DNA from: a virus
Strand: one strand, 5' to 3'
IMG/VR virus record: IMGVR_UViG_3300010413_000134
Coordinates: 1 to 39,931 of that record
Length of the DNA stretch: 39,931 nt
The position numbers and the translations under genes were made by a program. The notes beneath the pieces were generated by a model. The model was not told where the DNA came from and ran no database searches. It saw only the letters and a list, made by a program, of their open reading frames with translations. Of this stretch, positions 3,954-34,867 are shown in pieces (the stretch's first letter is position 1; the number at the start of each line of letters is the position of its first letter).

Positions 3954-4136
3954 TTAAAAAATGTTTTTTTTAAATTCATTTTTTATTCTTTCTTTATATC
4001 CAATATCAGTTTCTTGATAATGATAAATAAAGCCGTGATAAGAATCTTTTTTTTTAATAAGTTCATAATAAGTTTCTTTTATCTTCGGTTTAAAATACCA
4101 TATTCTCCTTTCTAAAAAATCAAGATTATTTTTCAT
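3954..4136 (-). CDS. Small hypothetical protein, 60 aa
   Basis: 60 residues rich in Tyr, Lys and Phe (MKNNLDFLERRIWYFKPKIK...), predicted helical, basic overall. It begins immediately after the stop of the broken CxxC gene (4137) so it would be the second gene of the leftward transcript starting at the promoter near 4571-4599. No domain recognised. Confidence 0.55.
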   Translation of the reverse strand: MKNNLDFLERRIWYFKPKIKETYYELIKKKDSYHGFIYHYQETDIGYKERIKNEFKKNIF

Positions 4137-4326
4137 TTATATTTCACTAATTTGTATTTGTTTTTTCCAATTATCTTCATGTTCTAAATGTAATTTTCTT
4201 AATTCCTTCACGGTTTTTTTCAACTGTTCCTGCGTATTGTGATTTTTCACACATAAATTCACAATTCTAATATGATGCAGTCAAACATTTGTCACATACA
4301 TATATAATTGTTTCGTCATTTAACAT
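4137..4326 (-). pseudogene. CxxC small protein gene broken by a frameshift
   Basis: From ATG 4324-4326 the frame reads MLNDETIIYVCDKCLTASY and hits TAG after 19 codons. In the +1 frame the sequence continues without stop for about 46 codons (HHIRIVNLCVKNHNTQEQL..., then a charged helix ending QIQISEI) to TAA at 4137-4139, directly before the next gene's ATG. Read together the two parts make a sensible 63-residue protein with a CxxC knuckle and a helical tail. The junction (minus strand ACTGCATCAT) is what a 2-base deletion from ACTGCACATCAT would give. Either a real frameshift mutation or a sequence error; less likely two unrelated short frames. Confidence 0.5.
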
Positions 4327-4570
4327 AATTTAATTTAATTTTATCATAAATAAGCTTAAGTTAATTTAAAATGTTAGGTGTGATGTGCCTAACTTTATTT
4401 CGTAATATATATACTATCGTATATATATTACTCATAAAGTTAATATTAAAATATTATTATATATTGCATTATTATATTATTACTTATATATTATATTAGT
4501 ATATACTAATATATATTATTATATATATAATATATTATATATATGACGCTCGTCCCTCGCGTCTATTATA
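4327..4570. other. Gene-free AT-rich region with stacked palindromes
   Basis: No credible gene. The stretch is almost pure A+T and carries several perfect inverted repeats: GTTAGG/CCTAAC (4373-4378 and 4388-4393, 9-nt loop), a 13-bp stem with a 4-nt loop (4402-4414 and 4419-4431), a loopless 22-bp palindrome (4492-4513), and the only GC-rich element, GACGC/GCGTC (4545-4549 and 4559-4563). It lies exactly between diverging operons. Such a DNA could be an unwinding element/replication origin, a repressor-binding region or a pair of transcription end points; the sequence alone does not decide. Confidence 0.6.
4545..4563 (-). promoter_or_regulatory. Stem-loop at the 5' end of the leftward transcript
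   Basis: GACGC and GCGTC form a 5-bp GC stem around a 9-nt loop. The leftward promoter at 4571-4599 would start RNA at about 4564, so this hairpin would be the first thing transcribed. 5'-terminal hairpins often stabilise mRNAs; this role is inferred from position only. Confidence 0.4.
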
Positions 4571-4599
4571 AGTATAGCAATTTTTTTTAGCCAAGTCAA
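4571..4599 (-). promoter_or_regulatory. Leftward sigma-70-type promoter
   Basis: On the minus strand: TTGACT (-35, plus positions 4594-4599), a 17-base spacer, TATACT (-10, 4571-4576), with TGC directly before the -10 (extended -10). It would drive the leftward operon 4326-1. The near-consensus elements and exact spacing make this a strong call, and suggest recognition by the host vegetative sigma factor. Confidence 0.7.
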
Positions 4600-4622
4600 G
4601 TAAAATTTTAATATATAATTTA

Positions 4623-4651
4623 TTGATTTTTTGTAAAATATGTGTTATAAT
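4623..4651 (+). promoter_or_regulatory. Rightward sigma-70-type promoter 1
   Basis: TTGATT (4623-4628), 17-base spacer, TATAAT (4646-4651), preceded by TGT (extended -10). It is followed by a candidate small RNA. The block TTGATTTTTT...TATAATTATAATG is nearly identical to the promoter at 9843-9871. Confidence 0.7.
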
Positions 4652-4657
4652 TATAAT

Positions 4658-4751
4658 GATACCCCAATAACCTTCGCTTCTATTCTTTCCAGCGGAATTC
4701 ATTATCTCGGATTCCCTGGAAAGAGATTAAAAAAATAAAAATAATCTTTTT
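4658..4751 (+). ncRNA. Candidate small structured RNA (about 95 nt)
   Basis: Starts where promoter 1 would initiate. It contains a strong hairpin: CTTTCCAG (4685-4692) pairs with CTGGAAAG (4716-4723) and GGAAT (4694-4698) with ATTCC (4711-4715), leaving a single bulged C and a 12-nt loop. It is followed by AGATTA/TAATCT (4724-4729 and 4742-4747) running into TTTTT, a weak intrinsic terminator. No open reading frame fits. The single-stranded 5' part (ACCCCAATAACC) could pair with a target. Class unknown; it could equally be the leader of the next transcript. Confidence 0.45.
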
Positions 4752-4773
4752 AGTAATTATCTATATTATATTA

Positions 4774-4802
4774 TTGACATATGTGAAATTATGTGTTATA
4801 CT
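4774..4802 (+). promoter_or_regulatory. Rightward sigma-70-type promoter 2
   Basis: TTGACA (4774-4779, perfect consensus), 17-base spacer, TATACT (4797-4802), preceded by TGT. Expected start is about 4809, right before the structured RNA that leads into the SLOG gene. The spacer resembles that of promoter 1 (both have ATGTGT before the -10), so both could share an operator. Confidence 0.75.
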
Positions 4803-4808
4803 AATAAT

Positions 4809-5035
4809 AGATTGTCATTATAATCTTATAATGAGATTGAGGCTATTATACCTGGATGGTGGGTAAAACTTCGGGAGAAGGTCCCTTGAAGCCTACTTTT
4901 CAATAGTCTGTGGACAAAACAGATCATGATGGAGAGAAGGGAGATATCGATGAAGTCATGGTTGCTAGTAATAGAATCTTAGTGTTATCGTACACCACCA
5001 ACGATAAACCAGCATATTAAGTGGAAAGCTTAATG
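4809..5035 (+). ncRNA. Structured RNA / 5' leader upstream of SLOG gene
   Basis: About 225 nt with clearly higher GC than its surroundings and a chain of pairable elements: TCATTATA/TATAATGA (4815-4834); AGGCTATT with AATAGTCT (4840-4847 and 4902-4909, one G-U) closing a domain that holds GTGGG/CCTAC (4859-4863, 4892-4896) and CTTCGGGA/TCCC..GAAG (4869-4876, 4882-4891); TCTGT/ACAGA (4907-4911, 4919-4923); CATGA/TCATG (4925-4929, 4956-4960); TTATCGT/ACGATAA (4985-5007); ATTAAG/CTTAAT (5016-5034). The last stem ends 15 bases before the SLOG ATG, which has no Shine-Dalgarno sequence. This looks like a riboswitch-type leader or a stand-alone RNA; no known class was recognised. Confidence 0.6.
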
Positions 5036-5049
5036 ATGATTATAATGAC

Positions 5050-5400
5050 ATGATTACAATAATTGCAGGATCAAGAAATATTAAAGATTATAATTTAGTT
5101 AAAAAAGCAATAAAAAATTCAGGATTTGAAATAACTAAAATAATATCAGGAGGAGCTGATGGAGTAGATAAGTTAGTAATTAGATATGCATTAGAAAATG
5201 GAATCTCTTTTGAAGTATTTCCTGTTACAAAAGAAGATTGGAAAAATTATGGAAGAAAAGCAGGTGTTATGCGAAATTTAGCAATGGTATAAAGATCTGA
5301 AACATTAGTGTCAATATGGGATTCAAAATCAAAAGGAACGAAAGACATGATATTAAAAGCAATGAGTAATAAGTTACAATTTTTTATTTATAAAGTTTAA
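5050..5400 (+). pseudogene. DUF2493/SLOG (YspA-like) gene with in-frame stop
   Basis: The frame from ATG 5050 encodes the DUF2493 (YspA/SLOG nucleotide-binding) pattern: IIAGSR at residues 4-9, IISGGADGVDKL near 33-43, FPVTKEDWKNYGRKAG, then MRNLAMV. TAA at 5290-5292 interrupts at codon 81, yet the same frame goes on with the family's expected C-terminal half (ETLVSIWDSKSKGTKDMI..., the WDGxSxGT motif) to TAA at 5398-5400. Full length would be 116 residues plus the changed codon. SLOG proteins bind nucleotides or their derivatives, often in stress or defence settings. A single base change (for example AAA, CAA or GAA to TAA) explains the break. Confidence 0.8.
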
Positions 5401-5413
5401 TTTAGGATAAAGT

Positions 5414-5683
5414 ATGTATTATTATATACAATCGAAATTAAAAATACCATCGAAATTAAAAATACCATTAGAAATTGAAAGTAAGTTTAAAAATAAATGT
5501 AAGAAAATTATTCTTGATGAAATCAAGAATAAAGAAATAGATAATAAAAGATTTGCAGAAATATTAAATATTTTACCATCTGGTGTAGATATTTTATTAA
5601 ATACACAACATTGGTCCATTGAAACCATAATACGAATTGCAAATGCTTTAGATTTAAAAGTAATATTGGACATTTTTTCATAG
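5414..5683 (+). CDS. Helix-turn-helix protein, XRE/HigA-like
   Basis: 89 residues. After a repetitive N-terminus (SKLKIPSKLKIP) the rest follows the pattern of short phage XRE/HigA-type HTH proteins: IILDEIKNKEIDNKRFAEIL (helices 1-2), LPSGVDILLNTQHWS (turn and recognition region) and IETIIRIANALDLKVIL (helices 4-5). Expected role is DNA binding and repression, perhaps of the divergent promoters at 4571-4802. An AGGAT sequence lies 6 bases upstream of the ATG. The HTH assignment is by pattern only and the recognition helix is poorly conserved. Confidence 0.55.
   Translation: MYYYIQSKLKIPSKLKIPLEIESKFKNKCKKIILDEIKNKEIDNKRFAEILNILPSGVDILLNTQHWSIETIIRIANALDLKVILDIFS
5431..5466 (+). repeat. 18-bp tandem duplication (two perfect copies)
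   Basis: The 18-base unit at 5431-5448 is repeated perfectly at 5449-5466, in frame, giving SKLKIP twice in the HTH protein; a decayed third unit follows (LEIE). Replication slippage is the likely origin. Confidence 0.85.
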
Positions 5684-6698: not shown

Positions 6699-8171
6699 AT
6701 GACTCCAGAAGAAGTTGCATTTTTAGCATCTAAAAATTTTTATGCCTTTCCTAAATTAGTATCCGGCCTTCAATGCCCACGTCATATAAAATTTCTCGCC
6801 GATAAAATACAACAAAAAATTGAAGATAAAAGCGACGGTTATAAGCTTTTATTAGTTTCTCTTCCTCCTCGGCATGGAAAGACACTTCTAATATCAAAAC
6901 ATTTACCACCATGGTATCTTGGTAATTATCCTCAAAATAGAGTAATATTGACATCATATTCTTCTGAATTATCTGATGAAAATAGCGATTATGCAAAAGA
7001 TGTATTTGCAAAATGGGGGCCTATCTTATGGGATGCTCATCCAAGCAAATCTCTTTACAATAGAGGTAAATGGAATACTACAAAAGGAGGAGGTTGTATT
7101 TCAGCCGGAATAGGTGGAAGTATTATCGGATTTGGAGCAGATCTTTTTATTATAGATGATTATTTTAAAGGAACCGATGATGCCTGTTCTAAACCCGCAA
7201 GAGATAAATTGTGGGAAAGATGGCAGGGAATAGTTGGTACTAGGTTACATCCAGGATGTCTTGTTATTATTCTTGCAACTAGATGGCATTGTGATGATTT
7301 AATGGGAAGACTTATAGATCAAAAAGAAAAAGATGGAAATGAATTTCCATTTGATTATGAATATATAAATATACCGGCATTAATAGAAGATGAAGTTGAT
7401 CTTAAAAATGATCCTCTTAAAAGAAAAATGGGTGAAGCATTATGGCCAAAAAGATATACTTCTAAATTATTAAAAGCTGCAAAAAAAATAGTTGGTCCTT
7501 TTTGGTGGAATGCTGAATTTAAGGGAAGGCCATCAAAAGAGGGTGGTAATTTATTTAAATCACAATATTTTAGATATTATGACATAGATAGATTGACAAA
7601 TAATATTTTGTGTTGGAGATCTGATTGTAATGAACCAATAAGAGTTAATAGACGTAATATAAAAATATCTGTAATAGTTGATCCAGCTCTTGATAAAAAG
7701 AAAAAGAATGATCCATGTGCATTGCATGCATGGGCATATTCAAGAAAACACAAAGTATGGATATTATTAGATAGAATAAATGAAAGAATGGATTATACAA
7801 GTATAAATAGAACTACTAAAGTTTTTGCATATAAGAATAATGCTTCCTATGTATTAATAGAAAATGAAAAAATAGGGAAAATATTAGTTAAAGAGTCTGC
7901 TGGTAATGACTCAATTGGAAATAAAAAAATACCATTCAGAGAAGTACCGACAAAGGGTATTGATAAAGAAGCACGTGCAGTTCCAATGGCAACTTATTGT
8001 GAAAATGAACGAGTTTTTTTTCCAAAGAATGCTCCATGGCTTGTTGAGTTTGAAAAAAATTTAAAAGATTTTCCAAATGGATCGCATGATGAAGATGCAG
8101 ATTTAATGGCATATGCTTCAACAATGGAAGATAAAATATCAATTGCTGAAGTTTTAGCAGGTTTACAATAG
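6699..8171 (+). CDS. Terminase large subunit
   Basis: 490 residues, the usual size. The ATPase half carries Walker A PPRHGKT (residues 56-62), Walker B LFIIDD (149-154) and the coupling motif ATRWH (193-197). The C-terminal RNase-H-like nuclease is marked by ISVIVDPALDKKKKNDPCA (an Asp metal ligand near residue 330) and the final Asp-rich region HDEDADLMAYA. TerL cuts concatemeric DNA and pumps it into the procapsid through the portal. It belongs to the COG5362-like terminases found with DUF1073 portals. The gene opens the canonical late order TerL-portal-protease-capsid. Confidence 0.93.
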   Translation: MTPEEVAFLASKNFYAFPKLVSGLQCPRHIKFLADKIQQKIEDKSDGYKLLLVSLPPRHGKTLLISKHLPPWYLGNYPQNRVILTSYSSELSDENSDYAKDVFAKWGPILWDAHPSKSLYNRGKWNTTKGGGCISAGIGGSIIGFGADLFIIDDYFKGTDDACSKPARDKLWERWQGIVGTRLHPGCLVIILATRWHCDDLMGRLIDQKEKDGNEFPFDYEYINIPALIEDEVDLKNDPLKRKMGEALWPKRYTSKLLKAAKKIVGPFWWNAEFKGRPSKEGGNLFKSQYFRYYDIDRLTNNILCWRSDCNEPIRVNRRNIKISVIVDPALDKKKKNDPCALHAWAYSRKHKVWILLDRINERMDYTSINRTTKVFAYKNNASYVLIENEKIGKILVKESAGNDSIGNKKIPFREVPTKGIDKEARAVPMATYCENERVFFPKNAPWLVEFEKNLKDFPNGSHDEDADLMAYASTMEDKISIAEVLAGLQ

Positions 8172-8180
8172 GAGAGTATA

Positions 8181-9782
8181 ATGAATACAAATACAAATGT
8201 TGTACATGATATGGCTGCAATAAGAATTAAAAATAGGAAAATGTATGATGCATATTCTAATGCAATGAGTGGCTTTGGTGGACAATATGATCCTGTCAAT
8301 AGATTAACATATAATACTGGTACTACATTAGACAGGGGAACAATTGAGACATTATATAGACAAGATTGGTTATCAAGAAAAATTGTCGAAACGATACCGG
8401 ATGATTGTACTCGTAAATGGATTGATATAAACATTCCGAATGAAAAGTTAATTATAAATTTACAGAATAAAATTGAAGAATTGGACCTTGTTGTTTCAAT
8501 TAAAGAAGCAATGATAAATGCTCGTCTATATGGTGGATCTATTTTAATAATCGGTATTGATGATGGAATGCCACCATACAAACCGATTGATTATAAAAAA
8601 ATTAATGATGTATTATATTTCAACGTAATAGACAAAAATTATGTTGATGTAAAAAGTTATTATAAAGATCCATTTAAAATGAATTATGGGAAACCAGAAT
8701 TATATAGATTGCAGACATTAATTAGACCAGATAATTATAATGAAAATGATTATACAGTACATGAATCGAGAATAGTTAGGTTTGATGGAAATTATTTACC
8801 AGAATTTACAAAAAGAATAAATAAATCATGGAATGATTCTGTACTTAATTCAATAAATAATAGTCTAAAGCATTATGGTACATCAATACAATCTGGAGCT
8901 ATACTTTTTCAAGATTTTATAAATAAAGTATTAAAGATTCCAAATCTTGCTGATTTATTACAGTCTGATGAAGGTAAACAAGCATTAGAGTTGAGATTAC
9001 AATATGCAATAGCTAATTTTTCATCATTGGGGATAGTCCTAGTTGGTGAGGATGAAGAATATAATAAAATACAAACACCAATAGCAGGTTTAGCAGATTT
9101 AATAGATAAGTACATAGAAATAATATCTGCCGCATCAAATATTCCACGATCAAGATTATTTGGTCAATCACTTGGTACTCTTGCTGGAGCAACAGAATCT
9201 ACAAGAGCGTATTATGATTCATGTGTATCATATCAAACATATTATATGAATAAACATATTAGAAAAATATTTAAGATATTATTAAATAGTAAATCATCTA
9301 TGACAAGAGGAAGAGAACCTCGTGAATGGGGATTCAAATTTAATAGTCTATGGGATGAAACAAATAAAGAGAAAACTACCGCTAGGAAGATGCAGGCACA
9401 GGTAGATCAAATTTATATAGAAGGAAAAGTTCTTACTCCAGAAGAAGTAACTGTGTCGAGATTTAGGGCGGATGGATATAGTTTTGACACAATTGTTAAT
9501 GTAAATAAAAGACTTGGGGAATTTTTTGAACAAAATAATAATCCATTTAATACAAATATAGATGGTGAAAAATTTGAACCTCCTGCAAGTGGGAATGCAC
9601 CACAATCTGTTAAAAATATATTATCGTCTATATATTCACATTTGAGGTCAATTTGGGTTAAAGAACATCCGAATGATAAAGAAAATAAACATAACAAAGA
9701 AATGTGTGCAAGAATTGCATGGAATGCTGTTAAAGAAGCTGGATGGTACAAAGATAAAAATGGTGAATGGAACAAAAAATAA
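8181..9782 (+). CDS. Portal protein (DUF1073) with ChaB-like C-terminus
   Basis: 533 residues. The core matches DUF1073 portals: TLYRQDWLSRKIVETIPDDCTRKW near the N-terminus, LLQSDEGKQALELRLQYA in the middle, and ASNIPRSRLFGQSLGTLAGATES, a hallmark segment. It forms the dodecameric DNA channel at the capsid vertex. After residue ~475 a separate module follows (SVKNILSSIYSHLRSIW...ARIAWNAVKEAGWYKDKNGEW), which resembles the ChaB domain (AW.AVK....DG.W). A good ribosome binding site (AGGAGAG) precedes the ATG by 5 bases. No separate gpF-like minor head gene follows. Confidence 0.9.
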   Translation: MNTNTNVVHDMAAIRIKNRKMYDAYSNAMSGFGGQYDPVNRLTYNTGTTLDRGTIETLYRQDWLSRKIVETIPDDCTRKWIDINIPNEKLIINLQNKIEELDLVVSIKEAMINARLYGGSILIIGIDDGMPPYKPIDYKKINDVLYFNVIDKNYVDVKSYYKDPFKMNYGKPELYRLQTLIRPDNYNENDYTVHESRIVRFDGNYLPEFTKRINKSWNDSVLNSINNSLKHYGTSIQSGAILFQDFINKVLKIPNLADLLQSDEGKQALELRLQYAIANFSSLGIVLVGEDEEYNKIQTPIAGLADLIDKYIEIISAASNIPRSRLFGQSLGTLAGATESTRAYYDSCVSYQTYYMNKHIRKIFKILLNSKSSMTRGREPREWGFKFNSLWDETNKEKTTARKMQAQVDQIYIEGKVLTPEEVTVSRFRADGYSFDTIVNVNKRLGEFFEQNNNPFNTNIDGEKFEPPASGNAPQSVKNILSSIYSHLRSIWVKEHPNDKENKHNKEMCARIAWNAVKEAGWYKDKNGEWNKK

Positions 9783-33518: not shown

Positions 33519-34343
33519 TTAAATAAGATTTTTTATTTGTTCTTTAATTATATTTTTTACTTCCAGTATTATTTGTCTTGCTCTTTCTTTTGATATTTTT
33601 CCATTTCTTTTTCCTATTTCTTTTAATGTGTATATTCTATTATATTCATTTAATCCTATTCTATCTTTGAAGATATTCTTATATTTTTCTTTTATATCTT
33701 TATTTTCATCTATTGTTTTTAATATTTTAAATAATAAATCTTTTTTATCATAATCATCTACATAATCAGATTTTATACATGACTCAAATTTTATATCAAT
33801 CATATCAGAATATTCGCTATCATGCATTATATCTGAAAAATAAACTATATCCATATTAAATGCTGACATACAATTTATCGCTTCATCCATTGACACTTCA
33901 CATTCATCTACTATATCATTTATAGTAGGTTTACAATTTCTCTCTTTTTCTAATTTTATTTTTGTTCTAATTATTTTCTTTGCCGTGCTTATTATATTGT
34001 ATGGTATATGAATTAAACGAGGTTGACTGTCTATTGCTCTAGACATAGCTTGCCATATCCACCATGATGCATATGTACTAAATCTTACATCATGATCTTT
34101 TATATTAATCTTATCTACGGCTTTCATTAATCCAATATTTCCTTCTTGAATCAAATCTTCAATTGCAACTCCTCTCCCTATCATTTTTCTTGCTATAAAT
34201 ATTACAAGTCTTAAATTATGTTTTATTAATTCATTTTTTGCATTTTCATCACCATTTTTTATTAATTCAAATAATTTTCTTTCTTCATTTTTTGTTAATA
34301 CTTTGAATTTATTAATTTCTTTTATATAATGATTAGAATACAT
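33519..34343 (-). CDS. RpoD-like sigma-70 family factor
   Basis: 274 residues. Region 1.2 (VLTKNEERKLFELIKNGDENA), region 2 (LRLVIFIARKMIGRGVAIEDLIQEGNIGLMKAV, then FSTYASWWIWQAMSRAI), region 3 (LIHIPYNIISTAKKI) and region 4 with HTH (YTLKEIGKRNGKISKERARQI) are all visible. This is a group 1/3-type factor with -10 and -35 reading domains, so the phage can reprogramme host RNA polymerase. An ECF sigma gene lies directly upstream. Confidence 0.9.
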   Translation of the reverse strand: MYSNHYIKEINKFKVLTKNEERKLFELIKNGDENAKNELIKHNLRLVIFIARKMIGRGVAIEDLIQEGNIGLMKAVDKINIKDHDVRFSTYASWWIWQAMSRAIDSQPRLIHIPYNIISTAKKIIRTKIKLEKERNCKPTINDIVDECEVSMDEAINCMSAFNMDIVYFSDIMHDSEYSDMIDIKFESCIKSDYVDDYDKKDLLFKILKTIDENKDIKEKYKNIFKDRIGLNEYNRIYTLKEIGKRNGKISKERARQIILEVKNIIKEQIKNLI

Positions 34344-34351
34344 TATTATTC

Positions 34352-34867
34352 CTAATTGTTTTTGTATATATTATCTCGCATTTTACTCATTCCTCTTTCT
34401 ATAAGAAAATGTATTCTTCTTCTCGAATATCCAATAAGATCTCTTATTTCTGGAACACTGAATTCTTTGAAAAATCTTAAATAAATAATATTTTTTTGCT
34501 TATTTGTTAATAATTTTAATATATTATTTATATTTATAAAGTATGGTTTATAATCAATATTAAGTTCATATGATAACATATTATTTATTTTTTTTGCTAT
34601 AATATCTTTATGTAGTTTACATTTATATTCATTTATATTTGTTTCTTTTCTGTATTTATCTATTATTATATTTTTAGCCACAACAAATAACCATGTTCTG
34701 ATATTTTCTTTTTTATAGTTATTTTGTATTAATTTTAAAAATGTTTCTTGAGTAATATCTTCCGATTCTTCATAATTATTTATTCTAGAAAATATAAATT
34801 TAAATATTTGAATATAATATATATTATATATATTAGTTAATTCTTCATCATTTAACTGTATATCCAT
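34352..34867 (-). CDS. ECF-type sigma factor
   Basis: 171 residues: region 2 (IYYIQIFKFIFSRINNYEESEDITQETFLKLIQN, RTWLFVVAKNIIIDKYRK) and region 4 (LTNKQKNIIYLRFFKEFSVPEIRDLIGYSRRRIHFLIERGMSKM), with a short linker and no region 3: the two-domain plan of ECF sigma factors. It overlaps the M15 peptidase gene by 16 bases and lies 8 bases ahead of the RpoD-like gene. It could act before or after that factor in a cascade. Confidence 0.88.
   Translation of the reverse strand: MDIQLNDEELTNIYNIYYIQIFKFIFSRINNYEESEDITQETFLKLIQNNYKKENIRTWLFVVAKNIIIDKYRKETNINEYKCKLHKDIIAKKINNMLSYELNIDYKPYFININNILKLLTNKQKNIIYLRFFKEFSVPEIRDLIGYSRRRIHFLIERGMSKMRDNIYKNN

Follow-up and report, generated by a model that had tools for sequence, protein, structure and literature searches.

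A promoter-proximal leader with a predicted end-to-end helix at the head of a phage late operon, and tRNA-like elements in the same slot of related phages

The window analyzed in this work, i.e., the whole stretch of 39,931 bases taken from IMG/VR, is AT-rich (27.5% GC) and comprises leftward genes up to position 4136, a rightward operon starting at 5050, and again leftward genes from about 32.6 kb. The rightward operon consists of a SLOG (YspA/DUF2493-type) ORF (5050–5292, plus strand), a weakly HTH-like ORF (5414–5683), the genes of the terminase large subunit (TerL; 6699–8171) and the portal protein (8181–9782), which together occupy 6699–9782 of the plus strand, and further structural genes downstream. 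As the segment 4809–5049 precedes this whole structural-gene operon, it is the head of the late operon and not merely the upstream region of the SLOG gene. On the minus strand, two adjoining ORFs (33519–34343 and 34352–34867) encode phage sigma factors (Sigma70_r2 matches with E-values of 7e-17 and 8e-11, respectively), which are candidates for reading the late promoter.

The SLOG ORF encodes 80 aa matching PF10686 (E-value 1.1e-8) and is closed by an in-frame TAA codon (5290–5292). Past this codon the frame continues to 5400 with a conserved C-terminal part (WD.KSKGT-type), and the residue aligned to the TAA is A or D in the related phages L007 and L009. The TAA may be a nonsense mutation, a recoding site, or a sequencing error, and the full-length SLOG protein may not be made here. 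As the ORF is cut, readings that need a working SLOG protein are weakened.

The segment is preceded by a sigma-70-type promoter with an extended -10 (4774–4802, plus strand; TTGACA-17-TATACT with TG before the -10), which matches the consensus at 11 of 12 positions and so bears out the near-consensus promoter of the original prediction. Among the 11 promoter-like sites found in 4137–5100 it ranks first; since shuffled sequences yield 10.6 such sites at the same loose threshold, only its match quality is notable. Transcription is expected to start near 4809. Two further claims were also borne out: the region is gene-free (4703–5049 has no ORF of at least 50 aa on either strand), and its GC content is higher than that of its surroundings (0.32–0.34 over 4751–5125 vs. 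about 0.18–0.25 around it, in 250-nt windows). No terminator was found at the end of the leader.

The 241-nt leader RNA folds with an energy of -63.9 kcal/mol and a z-score of -2.9 to -3.2 against shuffles, which supports the proposed non-random folding of a promoter-proximal leader. Its excess stability comes mostly from a 12-bp end-to-end helix, here called P1, in which the 5′ strand GTCATTATAATC (4814–4825, plus strand) pairs with 5038–5049 with pair probabilities of 0.81–1.0. The 3′ strand of P1 comprises the 12 bases directly before the SLOG start codon, and their probability of being unpaired is 0.00–0.09. An end-to-end helix as long as P1 appeared in none of 2000 shuffles, and the longest helix reached 12 bp anywhere in four of 2000; scanning the window in 241-nt stretches gave a helix of this kind in 48 of 39,690, neighbors of the leader stretch included. 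Other 241-nt windows of the phage, including coding ones, have z-scores down to -4 to -5.8. Based on this single sequence, P1 is predicted to be a translational-control helix.

Once its ends are removed, the leader (4836–5035) has a z-score of -1.9, and 4911–5035 alone reaches +0.4, i.e., its structure is not above chance. Thus, the six stems in a row that had been predicted can be drawn, and the whole RNA has a z-score of about -3, but they are only partly above chance. Similarly, the start codon at 5050 indeed lacks a Shine-Dalgarno sequence, but the structured part ends 0 and not 15 bases before it, because P1 extends to 5049. The 3′ part of the leader (4911–5036, plus strand; hairpins 4985–5008 and 5018–5036) is absent from the SLOG-bearing relatives, which have about 22–27 nt there. 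Inside it, after GGAGAGAAGGGAG, lies a mini-ORF of 10 codons (4949–4981, MKSWLLVIES) with a good Shine-Dalgarno sequence (AAGGGAG); it is a possible leader peptide, or it is possibly there by chance.

Just downstream of the promoter, on the plus strand, there is a perfect 20-bp palindrome (4815–4834; TCATTATAA-TC-TTATAATGA, whole sequence TCATTATAATCTTATAATGA) of a 9-2-9 layout, which could serve as a 5′ hairpin competing with P1 or as a DNA operator. Its strand 4815–4822 has two partners, namely 4827–4834 in the hairpin and 5040–5048 within P1, and the hairpin state is 6.9 kcal/mol less stable than the P1 state (-57.0 vs. -63.9 kcal/mol). Both a long-range helix over the initiation region and a competing metastable hairpin are thus predicted, as computed for one sequence.

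Relatives of the phage were found by TerL and portal searches, and six of them show the late-operon head (L006, L007, L009, L010, L013, and L099). In four, the leader slot holds a tRNA-like element; L007 and L009 also carry the SLOG gene, and L010 and L013 are without it. No element was found in the slot of L006, the nearest relative (79% TerL identity), or of L099. The promoter type (17-nt spacer and TG-extended -10) is common to the window and the four carriers, and it lies 14–37 nt upstream of the element in all five. Two of the elements pass the gathering cut-off (29 bits) of the Rfam tRNA family RF00005, with 45.9 bits for L007 and 33.3 bits for L010; L013 alone gave no match against Rfam, and neither the L007 nor the L010 element is detected by ARAGORN run at its normal stringency.

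An alignment of the three elements of L007, L010, and L013 spans 73 columns, and a covariance model built from them (R1; E-values are rough for a three-sequence model) recovered the L009 element, which lies outside the model, with 33 bits and an E-value of 7.5e-6 in 150 kb. L009 was scored with R1 only, and L013 is a seed member of R1. In the four-sequence alignment, which was fitted to the model and so leans towards structure, both partners have changed in 12 pairs (score 0.603 vs. 0.363, reached by none of 500 shuffles), and 90–94% of cells are paired in the acceptor, D, and T arms, with 44% in the anticodon stem. A three-sequence MAFFT alignment gave the same picture (12 of 500 shuffles). 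The anticodon stem is thus decayed in the relatives, and the acceptor helix is extended to 12 bp in L009 and to 17 bp in L010. In whole-record searches, L007, L010, and L013 each had a single strong copy, placed at the late-operon slot. Elsewhere, the phage of L006 carries an ordinary tRNA-Glu(UUC), and that of L007 has another tRNA-like sequence, which is degenerate (21.3 bits); the loci L153:1501–1573 and L158:1501–1572 (minus strand) cover these tRNA and tRNA-like sequences of the two phages.

In the window, the corresponding slot is filled by the element 4840–4910 (plus strand), in which acceptor-like strands AGGCTATT and AATAGTCT pair; the sequence at 4840 is AGGCTATTA, and the matching 3′ strand AATAGTCT lies at 4902–4909. 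At its 5′ edge the 8-mer GGCTATTA is identical in L007, and TTGAGGCYATTA is common to L009. The element can be drawn as a cloverleaf in which 20 of 21 pairs form, but this is not the favored fold, being 15 kcal/mol worse than the minimum (-7.6 vs. -22.4 kcal/mol). R1 assigns it 10.4 bits, which is the best score in 4600–5100 (E-value 0.021 in 501 nt) and ranks fifth in the 39.9 kb. ARAGORN in its permissive mitochondrial mode (-mt) matches the element, as it does six of 300 shuffles. The Rfam tRNA model gave no match at E ≤ 10, either in 4830–5048 or in the whole window, and the T-loop UUCRANY is missing (the loop reads CCUACU). The element still has the slot, the promoter type, and the 5′ strand of the acceptor; it is at best a probable, though unproven, decayed or remodelled tRNA-like copy.

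That the original prediction could place the leader in no RNA class agrees with our results: Rfam searches of the window and of short stretches gave no family, and whole-leader homologs were found neither by blastn or nhmmer among 161 loci nor by an exact 24-mer in IMG/VR. An osmY match in Rfam was rejected (17.7 bits vs. a cut-off of 46.9; about 21 bases of sequence only), as was a tRNA or tmRNA with an intron, none being detected by ARAGORN at normal stringency. Two stretches resemble rRNA, namely about 4947–4972, similar to h43 of 16S rRNA (77% of 26 nt; the best piece is attained in 115 of 1000 shuffles and the chained score in 3–4 of 300), and 4867–4881, which matches E. coli 23S rRNA exactly over 15 nt (1687–1701; AACTTCGGGAGAAGG; none of 1000 shuffles). 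As the pieces come from different rRNAs, are not colinear, and have counterparts in other 17–18-nt 23S matches of similar score across the phages, rRNA mimicry was rejected and the pieces were treated as coincidence, which the 23S match probably is.

Two observations concern the neighborhood of the leader and the terminase genes. Promoter-plus-hairpin modules closely precede the late promoter in the window (4620–4735; its hairpin 4684–4725 has a z-score of -5.8) and in the relatives (L009:400–890, L010:3600–3700, L013:3790–3890, and L007:3040–3150). In L009 four of them stand in tandem, and some have pyrimidine tracts, e.g., TTCTCCTT, complementary to Shine-Dalgarno sequences; these modules are possibly small RNAs. 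Moreover, the terminases of L009 (4977–6001, after residue 61) and L099 (5758–6770, after residue 193) contain large in-frame insertions, which we read as putative inteins, and the terminase genes of L012 and L013 break at residue 193/194, at the same place as in L099.

The operon position with its promoter, the slot match in four relatives, and a P1 helix beyond shuffles all support reading 4809–5049 as an untranslated 5′ leader that heads the rightward late operon (terminase, portal, tail) and would time the translation of the first gene. We favor this reading tentatively, at somewhat less than even confidence, since the low R1 score of the window element, the missing tRNA match and T-loop, and the unfavored cloverleaf count against it, as does the empty slot of L006 and L099. 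In the proposed mechanism, the promoter 4774–4802 would transcribe the leader together with the structural operon, and the larger leader of the window lineage would have arisen by remodelling of a tRNA-like element. During transcription, the palindrome hairpin (4815–4834) would form first and leave the SLOG start open; once 5038–5049 is transcribed, the 5′ strand would shift into the more stable P1 and close the start codon. Translation of the first gene would then be limited to a short time or a low level, with the later genes of the operon unaffected.

The main rival places the control at the DNA level, with the palindrome and the repeated TTATAATGA half-sites acting as operators for a repressor of the phage (possibly the Cro/C1-like protein 5414–5683 encoded just downstream) and the RNA pairing as a by-product. 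The perfect palindrome shortly after the promoter fits this, as does a weak HTH_37/HTH_26 match of 5414–5683, and of the four plus-strand copies of TTATAATGA in the 39.9-kb window, three (4651, 4826, and 5040) cluster within 400 nt. A further point against the leader reading is that P1 is seen in a single sequence and has a self-complementary core (ATTATAAT), so that repeats of -10-like or operator sites could generate the helix. However, the 12 bp of P1 exceed the 9-bp half-site and run exactly up to the start codon; TTATAATGA is missing from the late-operon heads of all six relatives, and the HTH matches fall under the Pfam cut-offs. We regard the operator reading as unlikely. Less probable still is a trans-acting non-coding RNA freed from the leader, for example a decoy resembling a tRNA or a product of RNase P processing comparable to the phage C4 and M3 RNAs, which RNase P is known to cleave (PMC11143913). 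It would agree with the decay of the anticodon stem in relatives that retain the acceptor, D, and T arms and with the one strong copy per phage confined to the late-operon slot, but the window copy no longer prefers the cloverleaf, no CCA end is present, and the long acceptor helices of L009 and L010 oppose normal end maturation.

We give the same low rank to the view that the region is a functionless, decayed tRNA-like remnant with a spacer, next to a SLOG gene that is decaying too. The weak R1 score and lost T-loop, a 3′ half no more structured than shuffles, the truncated SLOG ORF, and the closest relative (L006) having neither the element nor SLOG point in this direction, against which stand a GC content still above the surroundings, an intact promoter, and P1. 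Finally, the ligand-sensing riboswitch controlling SLOG, which the original prediction found attractive beside a partner RNA, is very improbable. SLOG proteins bind nucleotide-type ligands, and the two mutually exclusive states sharing one 5′ strand would suit a switch, but no conserved aptamer upstream of homologous genes emerged from Rfam or from 80 SLOG loci: none of these loci has an RNA resembling the window leader upstream of the gene, and in only one does a tRNA lie in the 600 nt before it. As the slot is filled without SLOG in L010 and L013 and the tRNA-like element is generally missing at SLOG loci elsewhere, the slot belongs to the late promoter, and the SLOG-linked reading is unsupported also because of the truncated gene, the lack of an Rfam class, and the lack of whole-RNA homologs among the 161 loci. 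The leader is probably a translation-timing element rather than a SLOG ligand sensor.

Comparison with known systems shows that the leader is new as a variant, as tRNA-like RNAs and self-closing leaders are already known kinds. The relatives' elements resemble phage tRNAs or tRNA-like RNAs (RF00005) in the Rfam scores of L007 and L010 and in the covarying acceptor, D, and T arms of four phages, but differ in the decayed anticodon stem, the missing CCA, and, in two phages, the 12–17-bp acceptor helix, whereas the copy in the window gives no match to the tRNA model. The 6S RNA of phage lambda is an untranslated leader of about 200 nt directly after the late promoter; the window leader shares this placement but has no terminator at its end, and no Q-type system was identified. 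In the leader of the MS2 maturation gene, the initiation region of this first gene is base-paired with a strand lying upstream, and a transient alternative state is formed (PMC6733600). The window leader is predicted to be similar in that its 5′ strand pairs up to the first-gene start and has an alternative hairpin; unlike MS2, it belongs to a dsDNA phage, has no Shine-Dalgarno sequence to mask, uses a 5′ palindrome as competitor, and is known from computation. In the hok/Sok and aapA mRNAs, 5′ and 3′ parts pair to shut translation and a metastable 5′ hairpin is formed (PMC6733600), but these are toxin mRNAs pairing via their 3′ ends, and the pairing in the window lies within an operon leader.

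These results draw attention away from a SLOG riboswitch and towards a leader of the late operon, with P1 as the key helix. For the phage group as a whole, a broader and rather speculative proposal, which we consider improbable though slightly less so than the operator reading, is that in these dsDNA phages the structural-gene mRNA begins with a tRNA mimic, which kept the elbow and acceptor and lost decoding, as a module for 5′ processing, stability, or translation timing, and that it was rebuilt as a self-closing leader in the window phage. If the tRNA-like heads are functional, a tRNA-shaped RNA would serve the phage as an mRNA 5′ module and not in decoding.
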